This document shows positions 48,228-55,765 of a stretch of 64,000 bases of DNA, one piece after another. Both the position numbers and the translations under genes were made by a program. Each line of letters starts with the position of its first letter. The first letter of the stretch is position 1. The stretch lies in NCBI RefSeq assembly GCF_004369205.1, contig NZ_QFGA01000001.1:1922001-1986000 (forward strand). The letters are read 5' to 3'. The notes beneath the pieces are model-generated. The model made no database searches. It was not told where the DNA came from and saw only the letters and a program-made list of their open reading frames with translations. The stretch comes from Pelotomaculum schinkii. Its GTDB lineage: Bacteria; Bacillota; Desulfotomaculia; Desulfotomaculales; Pelotomaculaceae.

Positions 48228-50148
48228 GATGCTGTCAAGTTAAAGTGGGTCGTATCCGATAATTTCCAATGCAACTCAACCAGGTTATAAATTTGACACG
48301 ATATAGATTGCAAAAAATTTAAAACACGGTGGCGGCGGCCTTGACTGCCACCCCCACGCATGGTCTGATAAAACATGCCGACGGGGTGGCTCCGGGAACA
48401 TGTCTACAAAGATAGCGAACCCGTCGTTTCTCCCATTATACCATGCGTGTGGCCCCCGGCAGTCAAGGCTACCCTGACGGCGCCGCCCAAAAAAAGCCTC
48501 AGGGATTCACCAAAAACATGTCTAAAAAATCCAATCTAAAGTGAGACGGCTAATTAGTAATGCCAGTTCCCGGCTTTTCTGATTGGGTCCATAAGCTGCC
48601 GGCAAGGATGCCCGTACCCAATCCCCAGGATCTTTTGCAGCCAGGCCATCTGTTTGTCTTCTGGCCCAATAGCCGTCCTGAACTCGTACCGGCTCACTCT
48701 CTGGAGTAGGCGGCCCTGGCAGGCGAAGAATATCTATAAGATTACCGTTTCTTTTTGCACAACGAACATGGGCGAGATTGTCAGATCCGTTTACCGACCA
48801 GGAAGCCCCCTGATGTTTAAACCGACGGGCAATGGTATGCCCCACATTGGGTTCGATAACTCCCAATCCCCGGGCCGGGGAAGGGCAGGGACGGTTTCTT
48901 TCCCGCCAGTCGGTAATCCCTTCCCAAACGCTATTGATTAGGCTTTGGAAAGCTCTTAGTTTTTCTTTTCTGGTTTCGTTTGGTTCTTCAATGATCAACG
49001 TCCTTAAAAACATATTGAAAGCGGCCCGGCTGTTCGTGTCGTTCGTATAGAGGATTTTCTCGAGTTTTTTTCTGTGCTGGGGGTTAAACAGGCTAATAAG
49101 ATCCCTTTTTAAGTGGAACCGGCAGTATTGATATTCGGCCCCTAAAAGATCGGCTCCTTCCCGGATCCAGTCGGCTCCGTCCCCGGCAATAATTTTTCTT
49201 GGGCAGCCGTCAAGATCGTAGAGCCGGCTTAAACGCCGTTCTAAGGCGCCCCAAAATTCTTCTCCTTTTCCGTGGTAAATGAAGTAAGTGGGGTTGATCA
49301 GTTTTGCTCTGCCATTCGGACCTTCTTCCCACCCTTCATAAACTACCGCTGTTTTTAACTCAAAGCGTCTCTGCTCACTTCTTTTGTGCCGGCGCTGTTG
49401 TTTGATCATCGCTCCGTCTACTTCGACAACCAATAAAGGGACAACACGGATACCGGTACCGTCTAAGCCAGTTTCCCCATCCCATTTCTTGAGGTGTTCA
49501 CCGGCTACTTGGACATCCCGATGGATGGTCTCGTGGCTGATGCTCACCCCCAAAGTGGTCTTTAAGGTTTCTTTTGCCTTCCTGTAGGTTTGTTCGGCGG
49601 CAAGCATTACGGCTATTTCGCTCAACCGGGCAGAGACATGCGCTCTTGCTGGTATACCCAGCAGTTCGTCCAGCAAAAAGGTGTAAGCGTAAGCTCCGCT
49701 TAAAGTGCGCTTTTTGTAGTAGCGTCTTGGGTAGCTGAGCACCCCCAGGGTGGTTTCGAGGCTTCGCTCCCTTATTTCAACTACTTCCCAACCCTCCCGT
49801 TCGGCCGAGTAAAGTATGAGCCGATCAAGGTGTTCTAAAAATGCAGTCAGCATCTGAATCAAGTAGTCTCTGGCAATGGTAAATAGTTCTTTTTCTAAAG
49901 TATTGAAATTTGTCTTTCCGGCAAGTACACTGTTAAGTAAAGTACTCACTCTTTTCTCTTGCAGCCAGGAACTTTCTTTCAGATAGTCTTGGGCTGCTTG
50001 GATTTGGGGTGATGTATTCACTAGAAGAAACCTCCTTTGTCGGTTTGGCTTACTTGCATTGGAGGTTTTCTTCTTTTCTCCGTGGAAAAACTCCTTGTCT
50101 TTTCGCCTGGAGATTACTGGTGATCACCCACAGTTATTTTACAGCTAC
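48228..50148 (-). mobile_element. ISLre2-type insertion sequence, copy 3 (1,921 bp)
   Basis: Same ends and length as copies 1 and 2. Target duplication taaattggc at 48219-48227 and 50149-50157. Lies between sigH and the tRNA-Thr promoter, same strand. Confidence 0.96.
48522..50021 (-). CDS. ISLre2-family DDE transposase, copy 3
   Basis: 499 residues, identical to the other two copies, with all catalytic residues. GTG start after AAAGGAGG. Confidence 0.93.
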   Translation of the reverse strand: MNTSPQIQAAQDYLKESSWLQEKRVSTLLNSVLAGKTNFNTLEKELFTIARDYLIQMLTAFLEHLDRLILYSAEREGWEVVEIRERSLETTLGVLSYPRRYYKKRTLSGAYAYTFLLDELLGIPARAHVSARLSEIAVMLAAEQTYRKAKETLKTTLGVSISHETIHRDVQVAGEHLKKWDGETGLDGTGIRVVPLLVVEVDGAMIKQQRRHKRSEQRRFELKTAVVYEGWEEGPNGRAKLINPTYFIYHGKGEEFWGALERRLSRLYDLDGCPRKIIAGDGADWIREGADLLGAEYQYCRFHLKRDLISLFNPQHRKKLEKILYTNDTNSRAAFNMFLRTLIIEEPNETRKEKLRAFQSLINSVWEGITDWRERNRPCPSPARGLGVIEPNVGHTIARRFKHQGASWSVNGSDNLAHVRCAKRNGNLIDILRLPGPPTPESEPVRVQDGYWARRQTDGLAAKDPGDWVRASLPAAYGPNQKSRELALLISRLTLDWIF

Positions 50149-51613: not shown

Positions 51614-52379
51614 TTAAAGCGATTCTCCTCTGGCGCACTACTTCATAGGCCAGCAGGGCGGCTGCAACTGAAGCATTTAATGAGTTTACACGACCGGACA
51701 TGGGCAGGCGCACCAGGAGGTCACACCGCTCTTTGACCAGACGGCCCAAGCCCTTGCCCTCACCGCCTATGACCAGGCCAAGCGGTCCCTCCAGGCGGGC
51801 GTCCCAATAAAGTTCCTGTCCCTCCGGATCGGCGCCTACCATCCAGAGGCCTTGCTTTTTCAATGTTTCGATAGTCTGAGGCATATTGGCGACCCTGGCC
51901 ACCGGCACATATTCAATGGCCCCGGCCGATGCCTTGGCTACAGTTGGCGTCAGCGGGGCGGAGCGGCGGCGCGGAATGACAACTCCGTGCGCGCCGGCGG
52001 CGTCAGCGGTACGGAGGATGGCGCCAAGGTTATGCGGGTCGTTGATCTCATCTAAAAGGATCAGAAACGGCGATACGCCGGGACCGGCTCCAGCCAGGAT
52101 GTCTTCCACTTCCACATACTCTTTGGCGGCTGCCAGGGCTATCACACCCTGGTGGGCGCCATCGGGGGCGAATTTGCCCAGCCGCTGCCTGTCCACCTTC
52201 TGCACGGGGATGTTTTTCTCCCTGGCCGCGCCGTAGATTTCCAACAGGGGCCCGGACAAAGGGCCTTCGGCTATTAGTATTTTATTGATGGGGCGGCCGG
52301 ACCGCAACGCTTCCCGGACCGGGTTGCGTCCTGCAATGACGTCTTCCAGGCGAAGTCTCTCCTCTTCTATCATAATCAC
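51591..52379 (-). CDS. rlmB: 23S rRNA (guanosine-2'-O-)-methyltransferase RlmB (SpoU/TrmH family)
   Basis: 262 residues. N-terminal L30e-like substrate domain (IAGRNPVREALRSGRPINKI) and the knotted SPOUT domain with LDEINDPHNLGAILRTADAA, LVIGGEGKGL and RLPMSGRVNSLNASVAAALL. Methylates the 23S peptidyl-transferase loop. The GTG start overlaps the TAG stop of the MazG-like gene by one base and there is no strong Shine-Dalgarno, so translation seems to depend on the AT-rich cassette upstream. An ATG at 52373 is an alternative. Confidence 0.95.
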   Translation of the reverse strand: MIMIEEERLRLEDVIAGRNPVREALRSGRPINKILIAEGPLSGPLLEIYGAAREKNIPVQKVDRQRLGKFAPDGAHQGVIALAAAKEYVEVEDILAGAGPGVSPFLILLDEINDPHNLGAILRTADAAGAHGVVIPRRRSAPLTPTVAKASAGAIEYVPVARVANMPQTIETLKKQGLWMVGADPEGQELYWDARLEGPLGLVIGGEGKGLGRLVKERCDLLVRLPMSGRVNSLNASVAAALLAYEVVRQRRIALNEGSSHR

Positions 52380-52705
52380 TAACTACTAACAACCTCAAGT
52401 AGCATTATTTTATCGTTAAATCCACCTCTATCAGATAGTTTCTTGAGCCTATACAATTCAAATTCTTTTTTATCAACACCCATCGAAGCAACGATTCCAT
52501 ATATAACCTCCACAACATCTACTAATTCCATAATATTATGTGACTGAAGATACTCATTAACTTCTTCAATCAGCTTTTCTTCTAAAGCCATAATATATTC
52601 CTGACCGTCCAGATTTTTAGTATAACAGATCTTGCCCTCAGCCTCTATGCAGCTAGGCACCTTATCCCTTACTAATTTGTTGTATATAACCATCGAATTC
52701 ACCAT
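52379..52705 (-). CDS. MazG-like / phosphoribosyl-ATP pyrophosphohydrolase-fold protein
   Basis: 108 residues. Starts near YNKLVRDKVPSCIEAEGK, a hallmark of small all-alpha NTP pyrophosphohydrolases. The metal-binding motifs are E-E-x2-E (residues 47-51) and E-x2-D (60-63). Such enzymes hydrolyse NTP to NMP and pyrophosphate. Its ATG overlaps the end of the HIT gene by seven bases (GCATGGTGA) and its stop overlaps rlmB. AT-rich like its three upstream partners. The substrate cannot be told. Confidence 0.82.
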   Translation of the reverse strand: MVNSMVIYNKLVRDKVPSCIEAEGKICYTKNLDGQEYIMALEEKLIEEVNEYLQSHNIMELVDVVEVIYGIVASMGVDKKEFELYRLKKLSDRGGFNDKIMLLEVVSS

Positions 52706-53406
52706 GCCTTAAGCCTACCCTTATATTTATTCAATATTTCCATATAAATACTATTAATATCAACACTATTTAACCTATTAAAGGTATCTACAATATAATC
52801 AATTCCAATGTACTCCTTCCAGTTCCAATTTTCTAAAACACCTAACTTATCAGCTAATATCTGTCGAATATATTGAGAAGGGATATTTTTACCTTCAATA
52901 ATATACTTTATCCCATGATTGTTCTGATAAAAAATATAGGGCTTATGAGAAAGATATTGCATCTTTAAATCATAGAAAGAATCAATCTTTCTAACCTCGA
53001 ACCCGTCATCAATTATATCAGGTAATATATCCCCATTATAAGGTAATATATGTAGATGCGTGTGATTAACACAACAACCACCCAGATTTTCATCTGTCAC
53101 AGCACCATGTTCAAAGGCTATTGTGCTTAATTTGTATATGTTTTTTAATAAACTATCAACGGTTTGAAGCAAACACTCCAATTCAAGCAGAAGATAAGTT
53201 GGAACAGAACCAATTGAAAGAAAGTGCTTCTCAGTAATGATTAACAAATAACCGGCAACAAATGAACCAAGTGCTGGTATTAGCAACCAATTCTTAGTTT
53301 TATATAAAAACCTATGACTCATATTAATATATTGGGAGACCATTGTATTAAAAAGGTTATTCTCTTCATCCATAGTTATTTCGGAGCAAAAGCTACATTT
53401 ATTCAT
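52699..53406 (-). CDS. HIT-superfamily protein
   Basis: 235 residues. N-terminal C-x2-C (C4, C7), core strands, and the histidine triad NHTHLHILP (H115, H117, H119), so a nucleotidyl hydrolase or transferase of the HIT/GalT superfamily is likely. A C-terminal half of about 110 residues has no motif I recognise. Start follows GTGAGGAGTAAAGATT, five bases after the PRTase-like gene. Codon use is AT-rich. Substrate unknown. Confidence 0.8.
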   Translation of the reverse strand: MNKCSFCSEITMDEENNLFNTMVSQYINMSHRFLYKTKNWLLIPALGSFVAGYLLIITEKHFLSIGSVPTYLLLELECLLQTVDSLLKNIYKLSTIAFEHGAVTDENLGGCCVNHTHLHILPYNGDILPDIIDDGFEVRKIDSFYDLKMQYLSHKPYIFYQNNHGIKYIIEGKNIPSQYIRQILADKLGVLENWNWKEYIGIDYIVDTFNRLNSVDINSIYMEILNKYKGRLKAW

Positions 53407-53411
53407 AATCT

Positions 53412-54341
53412 TTACTCCTCACCACGACTCATTAATAAATTTTCAATATATTCGTCTGATAGTGTTAATATTGAATAAACATTAATATTAAGAGCTTTTA
53501 GCTTTTCCAAACCTCTCCATTCCGATCTATGTACTAAACAGAAGAATGCCAATATATTTATACCACTCGGAAATTTATTAATACTTTTTATAACTTGCTC
53601 AGCTTTCACTAATACGTCATGAACAAAAATTATATTCTCATTTGAGTTAAGTTTTCCGTCCCAATACTGATCCTGTCTAATCTTGGGATTTTCCCTCATT
53701 TTAACAAATGGCTTTTTCATTCTCTCAGCGACTTTTAAACCTAAAAGGAAGTTGCCTTCAGTTGTGACAACAATCTTATCAATTTTACTCAACTCTCTTT
53801 CATCCATACTTGATTCTATGAGATTCACCATCATTGAAACTAAATCATAAGCAAAAAAATTATCGAACATAATATCCGTTAAATTAACATAATAATTTAC
53901 TGCATTATATAAAACACTTGGGATTCCTTTTTGATTTATTAAGGCGAAATCACTAATGCATATATGCTCTAACCTCTTTCTAATATTTTCCCACGTATCC
54001 ATTGGAGGGGACTTACGCAACTTGATAATTTCATATTTAACTTGTTCAAACTGCTCACTATTTAAGCCCAATTGAGCCAAGAATTGTCTAATTCGCTCAT
54101 CCTTATACTGCATTAATAAATTGTGATCTTCGGTAAATATTTGAGAAATACACTGATATGTATTCGCTTTAATATAATTAATATTATCTTTCTCTCTTTT
54201 CCTTTGTATTGCAGAAAACCAAGGAATATTAATTCCCTTGTGATCCAATATATCGAAAAAAGTAACTACTGCTAAGAAACATAAAATTAAATACCCGATG
54301 AAATCTTGAAAACATTTATAATATTCTGTCATGTGTTCCAC
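53412..54341 (-). CDS. Membrane-anchored phosphoribosyltransferase-fold protein
   Basis: 309 residues from GTG at 54339-54341 after GAGGTGATCAAAT. One membrane helix near residues 14-32 (FIGYLILCFLAVVTFF), a helical middle, and a C-terminal part like orotate phosphoribosyltransferase: IVVTTEGNFLLGLKVAERMK (190-209) and KPFVKMRENPK. Where the PRPP loop should be, FVHDVLVKAEQ (239-249) replaces the usual D-D/E-x-x-T-T-G-x-S, so PRPP catalysis is doubtful. It may bind a nucleotide as a sensor or effector. Third of four closely packed AT-rich genes. Confidence 0.65.
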   Translation of the reverse strand: MEHMTEYYKCFQDFIGYLILCFLAVVTFFDILDHKGINIPWFSAIQRKREKDNINYIKANTYQCISQIFTEDHNLLMQYKDERIRQFLAQLGLNSEQFEQVKYEIIKLRKSPPMDTWENIRKRLEHICISDFALINQKGIPSVLYNAVNYYVNLTDIMFDNFFAYDLVSMMVNLIESSMDERELSKIDKIVVTTEGNFLLGLKVAERMKKPFVKMRENPKIRQDQYWDGKLNSNENIIFVHDVLVKAEQVIKSINKFPSGINILAFFCLVHRSEWRGLEKLKALNINVYSILTLSDEYIENLLMSRGEE

Positions 54342-54352
54342 ATTTGATCACC

Positions 54353-55765
54353 TCATATAACCGAAAAACTATCGTATACATCTTGCATTTTTCCACATGA
54401 CAATCTTCCTTCAGGGCAATTCCTTGTCATAAAACATGCTGGGCCAACTCTACCAAATATGTTAGGTGCAATTCTTCTTAATTTTCTCAACATATCTATA
54501 GCAATTAAGCGAATTTCCCATTGAGCCCTATTACATGATCTTAGTTGTATAAAATGAAACAACTCTCTCGCATTCATAGTTGTAACCACATCTAAAACAT
54601 TTCCACTCAAATACAAATAAACCAAATCCTCATCAACAATACCTAAGGAATGAAATTCATTAAAAAAAGCAATATGATTTTTCCAAATTGCATGATACCT
54701 TGACAATAAAGTTGGATTGGAGGCTATAGTATTCGGTATAATATACCGATCGCTAATCCCGAATTCCGTAAATGATGGTACATTAAGGGATTGCATCCTG
54801 TGCCGAACAAGGTGAGTTAGACCAGCTAGGGAAATATTATTAATCCGAAATGTAAAATTAATTTGCTCTAGTTCACGCTTCCTCTTATCATTACATACTA
54901 TTTCCAACAATTGATTATGCAAACTTGCATCTGATTCAATTAATTCCGATGCTTTGTTCGTCGAACATAGTTTATGATTAATGATTGCCGTAAGTGCAAC
55001 AATTTTTTCCGGGTCATTTGTATAACTAATTATTTCGGTAGTTTCATTGGAATTACTTTTCTCAATAATTTTAGCATCAAGAAAATCTCTTAGCTTAAAT
55101 TCTTTATCCTCATTACCCGCTTCAAGTTGCTCAGTTTTATTAAAGATGCTTGGACATATCTTTGATGCCTGTAAAAGTAAGGATTCTCCTAATTTATTTA
55201 TTTCGGGAAATCCACTCCCCCTACCATATTTTGCAGAATATATAATGTGCATCAACTCACGTGCATTAACAGTACAATAAAAGTTACTAAAATAACAATA
55301 TGGCAGAAGAAACCTTGCATCTTCTTTTATTATACCGTTATTAACAAAATATTTATACTCCATGAATAAATAATTCATTTGCTCTGTGTACTTCTTAAAT
55401 ATATATTCTTCCGTTGCAGTAGATTCAGATTTTAGCCTAAATTTGGGAATATAATAGCCCATATTTCCAAAGTCAACATATCTCCGAGATTTAACAGTAA
55501 ACGAAGCTAGTCTAAATTCAATGATAAATTGCTCAACAAAAGCTGAAACATTTTCAAAAGCTATTGTGAAGTTGACATGCTCAATAAAGGATTTATGCCC
55601 AGAATCTAATACTTTTGATATTAGGCTATAATTATTGCTTTTCACTACTTCTTCAAAAATATCAATAGAAGAACCTAATTTAGTTGAAATCCTTGCGGCA
55701 GCAGTGCATATCTTTTCTGGTTCAGGTGTATGAGCTATAATTAAAGCTCTTGAATGATGAGGCAT
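54353..55765 (-). CDS. Double-length ThyX-type (flavin-dependent) thymidylate synthase-like protein
   Basis: 470 residues, about twice a normal ThyX. Two ThyX-like halves are visible. The N-terminal half has EFR-x7-S at 83-93, keeping the S-x-R-Y (93-96) of the dUMP site but not RHR. The C-terminal half has RHR-x7-S (321-331) and NAREL...LR...AQWEIR (398-419), but FTE replaces S-x-R-Y. A C-terminal cysteine tail (C444, C450, C457) follows. ThyX makes dTMP from dUMP with FAD, NADPH and methylenetetrahydrofolate. It begins an AT-rich operon with three nucleotide-related genes. Could make dTMP or act on another pyrimidine. Confidence 0.85.
   Translation of the reverse strand: MPHHSRALIIAHTPEPEKICTAAARISTKLGSSIDIFEEVVKSNNYSLISKVLDSGHKSFIEHVNFTIAFENVSAFVEQFIIEFRLASFTVKSRRYVDFGNMGYYIPKFRLKSESTATEEYIFKKYTEQMNYLFMEYKYFVNNGIIKEDARFLLPYCYFSNFYCTVNARELMHIIYSAKYGRGSGFPEINKLGESLLLQASKICPSIFNKTEQLEAGNEDKEFKLRDFLDAKIIEKSNSNETTEIISYTNDPEKIVALTAIINHKLCSTNKASELIESDASLHNQLLEIVCNDKRKRELEQINFTFRINNISLAGLTHLVRHRMQSLNVPSFTEFGISDRYIIPNTIASNPTLLSRYHAIWKNHIAFFNEFHSLGIVDEDLVYLYLSGNVLDVVTTMNARELFHFIQLRSCNRAQWEIRLIAIDMLRKLRRIAPNIFGRVGPACFMTRNCPEGRLSCGKMQDVYDSFSVI

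Follow-up and report, generated by a model that had tools for sequence, protein, structure and literature searches.

Complementary division of active-site residues between two fused ThyX domains in a tandem protein of Pelotomaculum schinkii

A tandem ThyX gene at the mrnC-rlmB locus

The window, i.e., the whole 64,000-nucleotide stretch of Pelotomaculum schinkii DNA analysed here, carries an open reading frame (ORF) on the minus strand (54353..55765) that starts with ATG, encodes 470 aa, and has no internal stops. The encoded protein consists of two ThyX (Thy1) domains in one chain. The entire protein scored 259.6 bits against the Pfam profile PF02511 (cut-off 24.8 bits) and 176.3 against TIGR02170 (equivalog cut-off 87.9), and each half singly exceeded the Pfam cut-off (139.5 bits for the N-half and 124.9 bits for the C-half). 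By profile score, the whole chain and both of its halves thus belong to the ThyX family. The gene, its parts, and the three genes next to it are as follows:

54353..55765, minus strand: tandem (fused) ThyX, 470 aa, by Pfam/TIGRFAM profile scores; the genome's only thymidylate synthase candidate
55130..55765, minus strand: N-half, residues 1-212 (Z 18.0 to TM0449)
55049..55129, minus strand: linker, residues 213-239, of a length that varies between homologues
54356..55048, minus strand: C-half, residues 240-470 (also modelled separately with AlphaFold2)
53412-54341, minus strand: PRTase-like gene (weak family match)
52699-53406, minus strand: HIT-like gene (weak family match)
52379-52705, minus strand: PRA-PH/MazG-like gene (weak family match)

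The tandem gene sits between mrnC and rlmB, the slot that a single thyX occupies in relatives. A genome of the same genus (G001, locus L027) has an ordinary single thyX at this position, and tandem genes are also found there in G099, G140, and the G284 family described below. In the window, mrnC and rlmB enclose 3.5 kb of DNA, containing the tandem gene and the three others, with a G+C content of ~0.31 against ~0.55 in the flanks. On the basis of this difference, the PRTase-like, HIT-like, and PRA-PH/MazG-like genes (52379-54341) arrived together with the tandem thyX, and this is most simply explained by a foreign cassette that took the place of the resident thyX at its own locus. The three-gene block may be a cassette for nucleotide-linked conflict or modification. 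Its HIT protein matched one other genome among 398 and had no match in phages, and its PRTase protein had no match in plasmids.

In Parabacteroides (L072), a tandem ThyX stands in a row with an AAA ATPase (PADLOC IetA-like match), HIT, PRA-PH, and DHFR genes, and a short ORF following the tandem gene in L136 (6540-6806) resembles the PRTase. Elsewhere in the window, we observed a ribosomal protein L10 leader (RF00557, 35888-36029, minus strand, 48.4 bits) and a UPF0236 protein (48522-50021, minus strand, 199 bits) directly downstream of a sigH-like gene; members of the UPF0236 family are often transposase-like.

Active-site residues are split between the two halves

Residues are given in the numbering of Thermotoga maritima ThyX (Tm), mapped through the alignments made here, or in that of the window protein itself. 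The N-half keeps H53, S/T55, S88-x-R90-Y91, and R147 (Tm) and lacks RHR, R174, and QWE; the C-half keeps RHR, R174, and AQWEIR and lacks H53, S/T55, R90, Y91, and R147 (Tm). The segments concerned, with their conservation in 88 homologues, are the following:

55577..55600, minus strand: N-half GHKSFIEH (Tm H53, S/T55, E58); H, S/T, and E invariant; role-B contact to FAD according to PMC6514825
55511..55519, minus strand: N-half E83-F84-R85 at the RHR position; E 98%, F 99% in the family
55478..55489, minus strand: N-half S93-R94-R95-Y96 (S-x-R-Y, Tm 88-91); 88/88
55313..55324, minus strand: N-half E148-D149-A150-R151 (Tm R147); 88/88
54866..54883, minus strand: C-half R295-K-R297-E-L-E300 at the GHx[S/T]xxE position; R295 in 86/88, R297 and E300 in 88/88
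54797..54805, minus strand: C-half R321-H322-R323 (RHR, Tm 78-80); 88/88
54764..54775, minus strand: C-half S331-F332-T333-E334 at the lost S-x-R-Y, by aligned position in the 88 homologues
54509..54544, minus strand: C-half L408-R409-SCNRAQWEIR (Tm R174 and QWE helix); L/R/Q/W/E 88/88

In the window protein, the dUMP pocket of the N-half corresponds to S93, R95, Y96, and R151, and S59 and R169 to the contacts with the FAD of a neighbour, while the AQWEIR of the C-half is A414-Q415-W416-E417-I418-R419. The first-pass annotation had described an N-half that retains S-x-R-Y, with EFR for RHR and without the LR...AQWEIR strand, and a C-half that retains RHR and AQWEIR; the translation of the ORF agrees on every one of these points (R321-H322-R323 and L408-R409...R419 in the C-half). 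Its further claim that the C-half has lost S-x-R-Y is correct for R90 and Y91, where T333-E334 are found, but not for the serine, which is still present as S331, although only about half of the homologous C-halves have it. Two more complementary losses emerged, as R147 and the GHx[S/T] segment survive only in the N-half. R80, E58, and R165 (Tm) are retained by both halves, and Tm position 75, a Q in ordinary ThyX, is altered in both (H in C-halves). A canonical single-domain ThyX has RHR...SxRY and R174 within one domain, which neither half of the window protein does. Since the motifs are split, we classify the protein as a ThyX-family variant rather than as a canonical ThyX.

Homologues and conservation of the split

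A search across the phylum (398 genomes) retrieved full-length relatives in six other genomes. Scans of genome contigs and of viral contigs with a single-sequence query gave no match, and an alignment-based scan of 84,980 species gave 260 relatives. Among the best 80 of these 260, all 80 yield a tandem ORF, and nearly all are Clostridia from metagenome assemblies. The aligned family contains 88 tandem proteins from 85 distinct records, many of them derived from metagenome-assembled genomes (MAGs).

In the 88 N-halves, H53, S88, R90, Y91, and R147 are each conserved at 100%, as is S/T at position 55, whereas the positions of the other residue set have changed to E (78, 98%), F (79, 99%), and M/A (174). 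In the 88 C-halves, RHR, R174, Q180, and W181 are all at 100%, position 53 is R in 98% and position 55 is R in 100%, and the residues at 90, 91, and 147 are lost. Single-domain ThyX proteins (47 cellular and 70 viral) have both residue sets within one chain, so that the loss is a feature of the tandem form. The conservation of the split in 88 homologous sequences indicates that it is due neither to chance nor to local decay. Furthermore, RHR followed by SxRY occurs in none of the halves of 107 tandem ThyX proteins, bacterial and phage. The asymmetry suggested for the window protein is therefore kept in all the tandem proteins examined, and the case that would have spoken against it, a homologue with both motif sets in one half, is absent among these 107. 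Overall, the split is real and conserved, and the protein is very probably functional.

Among viral contigs, the best matches were single-domain ThyX, as judged by match length. One relative with 42% identity is located on a fecal contig classed as phage. A record labelled Bacteriophage sp. (L071, MT835736.1) carries tmk and genes for penicillin-binding-like and peptidase-like proteins besides the tandem thyX, and looks like a fragment of a bacterial chromosome. A MAG labelled Desulfobacteraceae (L073, JAUWZV010000007.1) encodes a tandem ThyX 60% identical to that of the window, with tmk 38 bases downstream; this is either a cross-phylum transfer or a case of mis-binning.

Predicted structure

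The AlphaFold2 model of the whole chain had a pLDDT of 92.7 and a pTM of 0.89, which predicts two folded halves with a definite packing. The N-half of the model superposed on TM0449 with Z 18.0 (206 residues, rmsd 2.4), and the C-half modelled alone (pLDDT 92.7) reached a TM-score of ~0.75 to the same structure. Both predicted halves thus have the ThyX fold. The model also matched PolB with Z 16.6, a value that does not separate PolB from ThyX. Among solved structures, we found no tandem ThyX; among predicted viral proteins, a 491-aa protein of Microcystis phage LMM01 and a 461-aa entry aligned along the entire model.

Other types of tandem ThyX

A second tandem family, here type III (the G284 family: L063:4358-5698 and L234-L242), has 10 sequences of 446 aa at the mrnC-rlmB locus. 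Its N-half contains SQRYV and EDARY, and its C-half YGHxSIxEQ, RHR, and ERICxNAQWEI. Like the window family it is fused and complementary, but the split differs: GHxS sits together with RHR in the C-half, and the N-half keeps only SQRY and R147, a partition that is nonetheless self-consistent. Type II is found in Parabacteroides, Euzebya, Miltoncostaea, Bacillus/Paenibacillus plasmids, and the Tunturi_5 phage. It shares the overall partition of the window family (the N-half has the pocket residues, and the C-half has RH(x)R and R174), although the Parabacteroides protein is only ~23% identical to that of the window and motif details vary, with RHNR in the Bacillus group.

In the trees, N-halves cluster with N-halves and C-halves with C-halves. 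This points to a single fusion in the window family; for the tandem types taken together, the long branches in the trees are compatible with one or several fusions. We also considered the extra ThyX paralogues of G047 and G012 (L258:1080-1814 and L260:1169-1990), which have SRHPH for RHR, as complementary halves encoded by separate genes, and rejected this because they keep both SxRY and R174 intact.

Tandem ThyX as the candidate dTMP source

In the window genome (100% complete), we found no ThyA, other ThyX, thymidine kinase, or DHFR. Extending the search to 16 tandem-ThyX genomes (this one and 15 others) likewise revealed no other ThyX, thymidine kinase, or DHFR, and a single weak partial match to ThyA, in G099. 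From this we infer that the tandem ThyX is, very probably, the dTMP synthase of these 16 genomes, and in many gut Clostridia dTMP is likely to come from this enzyme alone, as far as gene content tells. The tmk gene, which encodes the next enzyme, acting on dTMP, is present in 38 of 80 homologous loci, many of which are incomplete, and lies within 1.6 kb in 36 of them, mostly in divergent orientation.

An improbable alternative is that the fused protein acts on a related substrate rather than as the housekeeping dTMP synthase, either on UMP, as PolB does, or on a modified-nucleotide base together with its PRTase-, HIT-, and MazG-like neighbours. The setting of the window gene, in a foreign low-G+C cassette with three genes of nucleotide-handling type, would fit such a role, as would the AAA ATPase, HIT, and PRA-PH genes adjoining the Parabacteroides tandem ThyX, and PolB shows that a ThyX can accept UMP (PMC7226160). 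However, a genome that lacks both another thymidylate synthase and thymidine kinase argues against it, as does the position of the gene in the ordinary thyX slot; moreover, the usual neighbour in the wider family is tmk and not the cassette.

A proposed two-live, two-dead tetramer

The proposal that each ThyX active site is built by different subunits of the tetramer is borne out by published structures, which give three subunits per site. In the M. tuberculosis and H. pylori enzymes, FAD is bound by the RHR of subunit A with Ser71 and Arg190 of B, and dUMP by Arg95 and Arg199 of A with Arg87, Ser105, and Arg107 of C, whose Tyr108 acts as a lid (PMC6514825). In PBCV-1 ThyX, Gln-75 and Arg-182 come from one monomer and Ser-88 and Gln-89 from the other (PMC3498832), a division that agrees with these roles. 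Mapped by our alignments to Tm numbers, the residues are 78-80 and 174 for role A, 55 and 165 for role B, and 88, 90, and 91 for role C. The N-half of the window family has kept roles B and C and lost A; the C-half has kept A and lost B and C, except for R165, which is present in both halves.

There are three ways to place two N and two C domains in a 222 tetramer. Enumerating them with the published roles, we found that only one of the three yields live sites in the window family (A and D taken by C-halves, B and C by N-halves), and that two sites are then live. The G284 split also has exactly one live arrangement, with C-halves at A and B and again two live sites. By chance, a perfect split has p = 0.029 with the seven positions of documented role, and p = 0.0013 with twelve, which include positions whose roles the cited papers do not document (53, 147, 169, 180, and 181); neighbouring positions are not independent. 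From these enumerations, two different splits that are both compatible with the tetramer would be unlikely under random decay.

We therefore propose the following model. A ThyX would have duplicated and fused, and the two halves would then have lost complementary parts of the active site. Two fused chains would pair into one pseudo-tetramer, in which the C-halves give RHR (for the FAD phosphates and dUMP) and R174 (for dUMP), the dUMP pocket with S-x-R-Y comes from the N-half of one chain, and the S/T55 and R165 that contact FAD come from that of the other chain. With C-halves at A/D and N-halves at B/C, there would be two live sites per tetramer, each made of one C-half and two N-halves. Since a live site needs a C-half, an N-half, and the N-half of a second chain, the working unit would comprise two fused chains and four sites, two of them live and two dead. 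The other two sites, where the EFR of an N-half meets the R295/R297 and TE remnants of C-halves, would be dead for FAD and dUMP and are probably kept as scaffold. In these predicted dead sites, E83 (Tm position 78, 98% E) and R297 (Tm position 55, 100% R) would be opposed at the place of the FAD phosphates, and a buried E83-R297 pair, conjecturally a salt bridge, may replace the missing phosphate.

The first-pass annotation had put forward one good composite site, formed by the N-half pocket and the flavin side of the C-half, with the other site decaying. Conservation, the published roles, and the status of the protein as sole enzyme all support this idea in its basic form; it needs extension in one respect, as a live site would draw on three domains and not on one fused pair. 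Overall, we hold it highly likely that the window protein is a working flavin-dependent thymidylate synthase that originated by ThyX duplication and fusion followed by complementary loss, with activity, oligomeric state, and arrangement as predictions of the model.

Composite sites could also have another geometry, with longer oligomers, or with R80 and R165 of the other half in use, so that all four positions are partly functional (e.g., in FAD binding). R80, E58, and R165 are indeed present in both halves, but in two of the four predicted sites the dUMP-contacting and FAD-phosphate-contacting residues are missing, and we regard this geometry as unlikely. A decaying duplication that has left a remnant of poor or no catalytic activity, with dTMP supplied by an unrecognised salvage kinase or an unknown enzyme, would fit the incomplete ThyX sequence of either half, but is very improbable given complementary residues strictly conserved down to ~40% identity, the absence of thymidine kinase in 16 of 16 genomes, and the high-confidence predicted fold.

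Going beyond the window protein, it seems reasonably likely that thymidylate synthase has, in fused ThyX, a second and widespread form: a homotetramer turned into a two-live/two-dead enzyme by complementary loss along two routes (B and C versus A; A and B versus C), each with exactly one live 222 arrangement. The conserved E83-R297 pair may close off the dead FAD site.

Comparison with known systems

ThyX is a drug target and has been studied as a homotetramer. In a homotetramer, any mutation reaches the four sites together and affects each of the three subunit roles; the fused form puts these roles in different halves, so that a mutation can address each residue's role separately. Tandem ThyX also provides a clear example from nature of a homo-oligomer that became asymmetric after fusion, with two different outcomes to compare.

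The window protein and ordinary ThyX (PF02511, TIGR02170; e.g., TM0449 and M. tuberculosis ThyX) share the fold, the residues, the predicted reaction, and the mrnC-thyX-rlmB slot. The window genome is also like ThyX genomes in being without DHFR, whose absence is common with ThyX. The window protein differs in having two domains per chain, each with a partial active site, and two predicted live sites instead of four.

The duplicated form itself is already known to exist. In the open-access library searched for duplicated, fused, or tandem ThyX, we found nothing beyond Valas and Bourne (2009), and no previous account of how the residues divide in a complementary way, how conserved this division is, or how it matches the tetramer. 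These authors mention a Chloroflexi ThyX with a domain duplication as uncharacterised (PMC3224940); as in the window protein, the duplication lies within one ThyX, and the part of the paper that deals with it gives no residue analysis. A parallel is offered by ABC exporters with one degenerate nucleotide site, which are unrelated to ThyX in protein and chemistry (PMC7756269 deals with such exporters). They, too, are formerly symmetric multi-site proteins with one good and one degenerate composite site.
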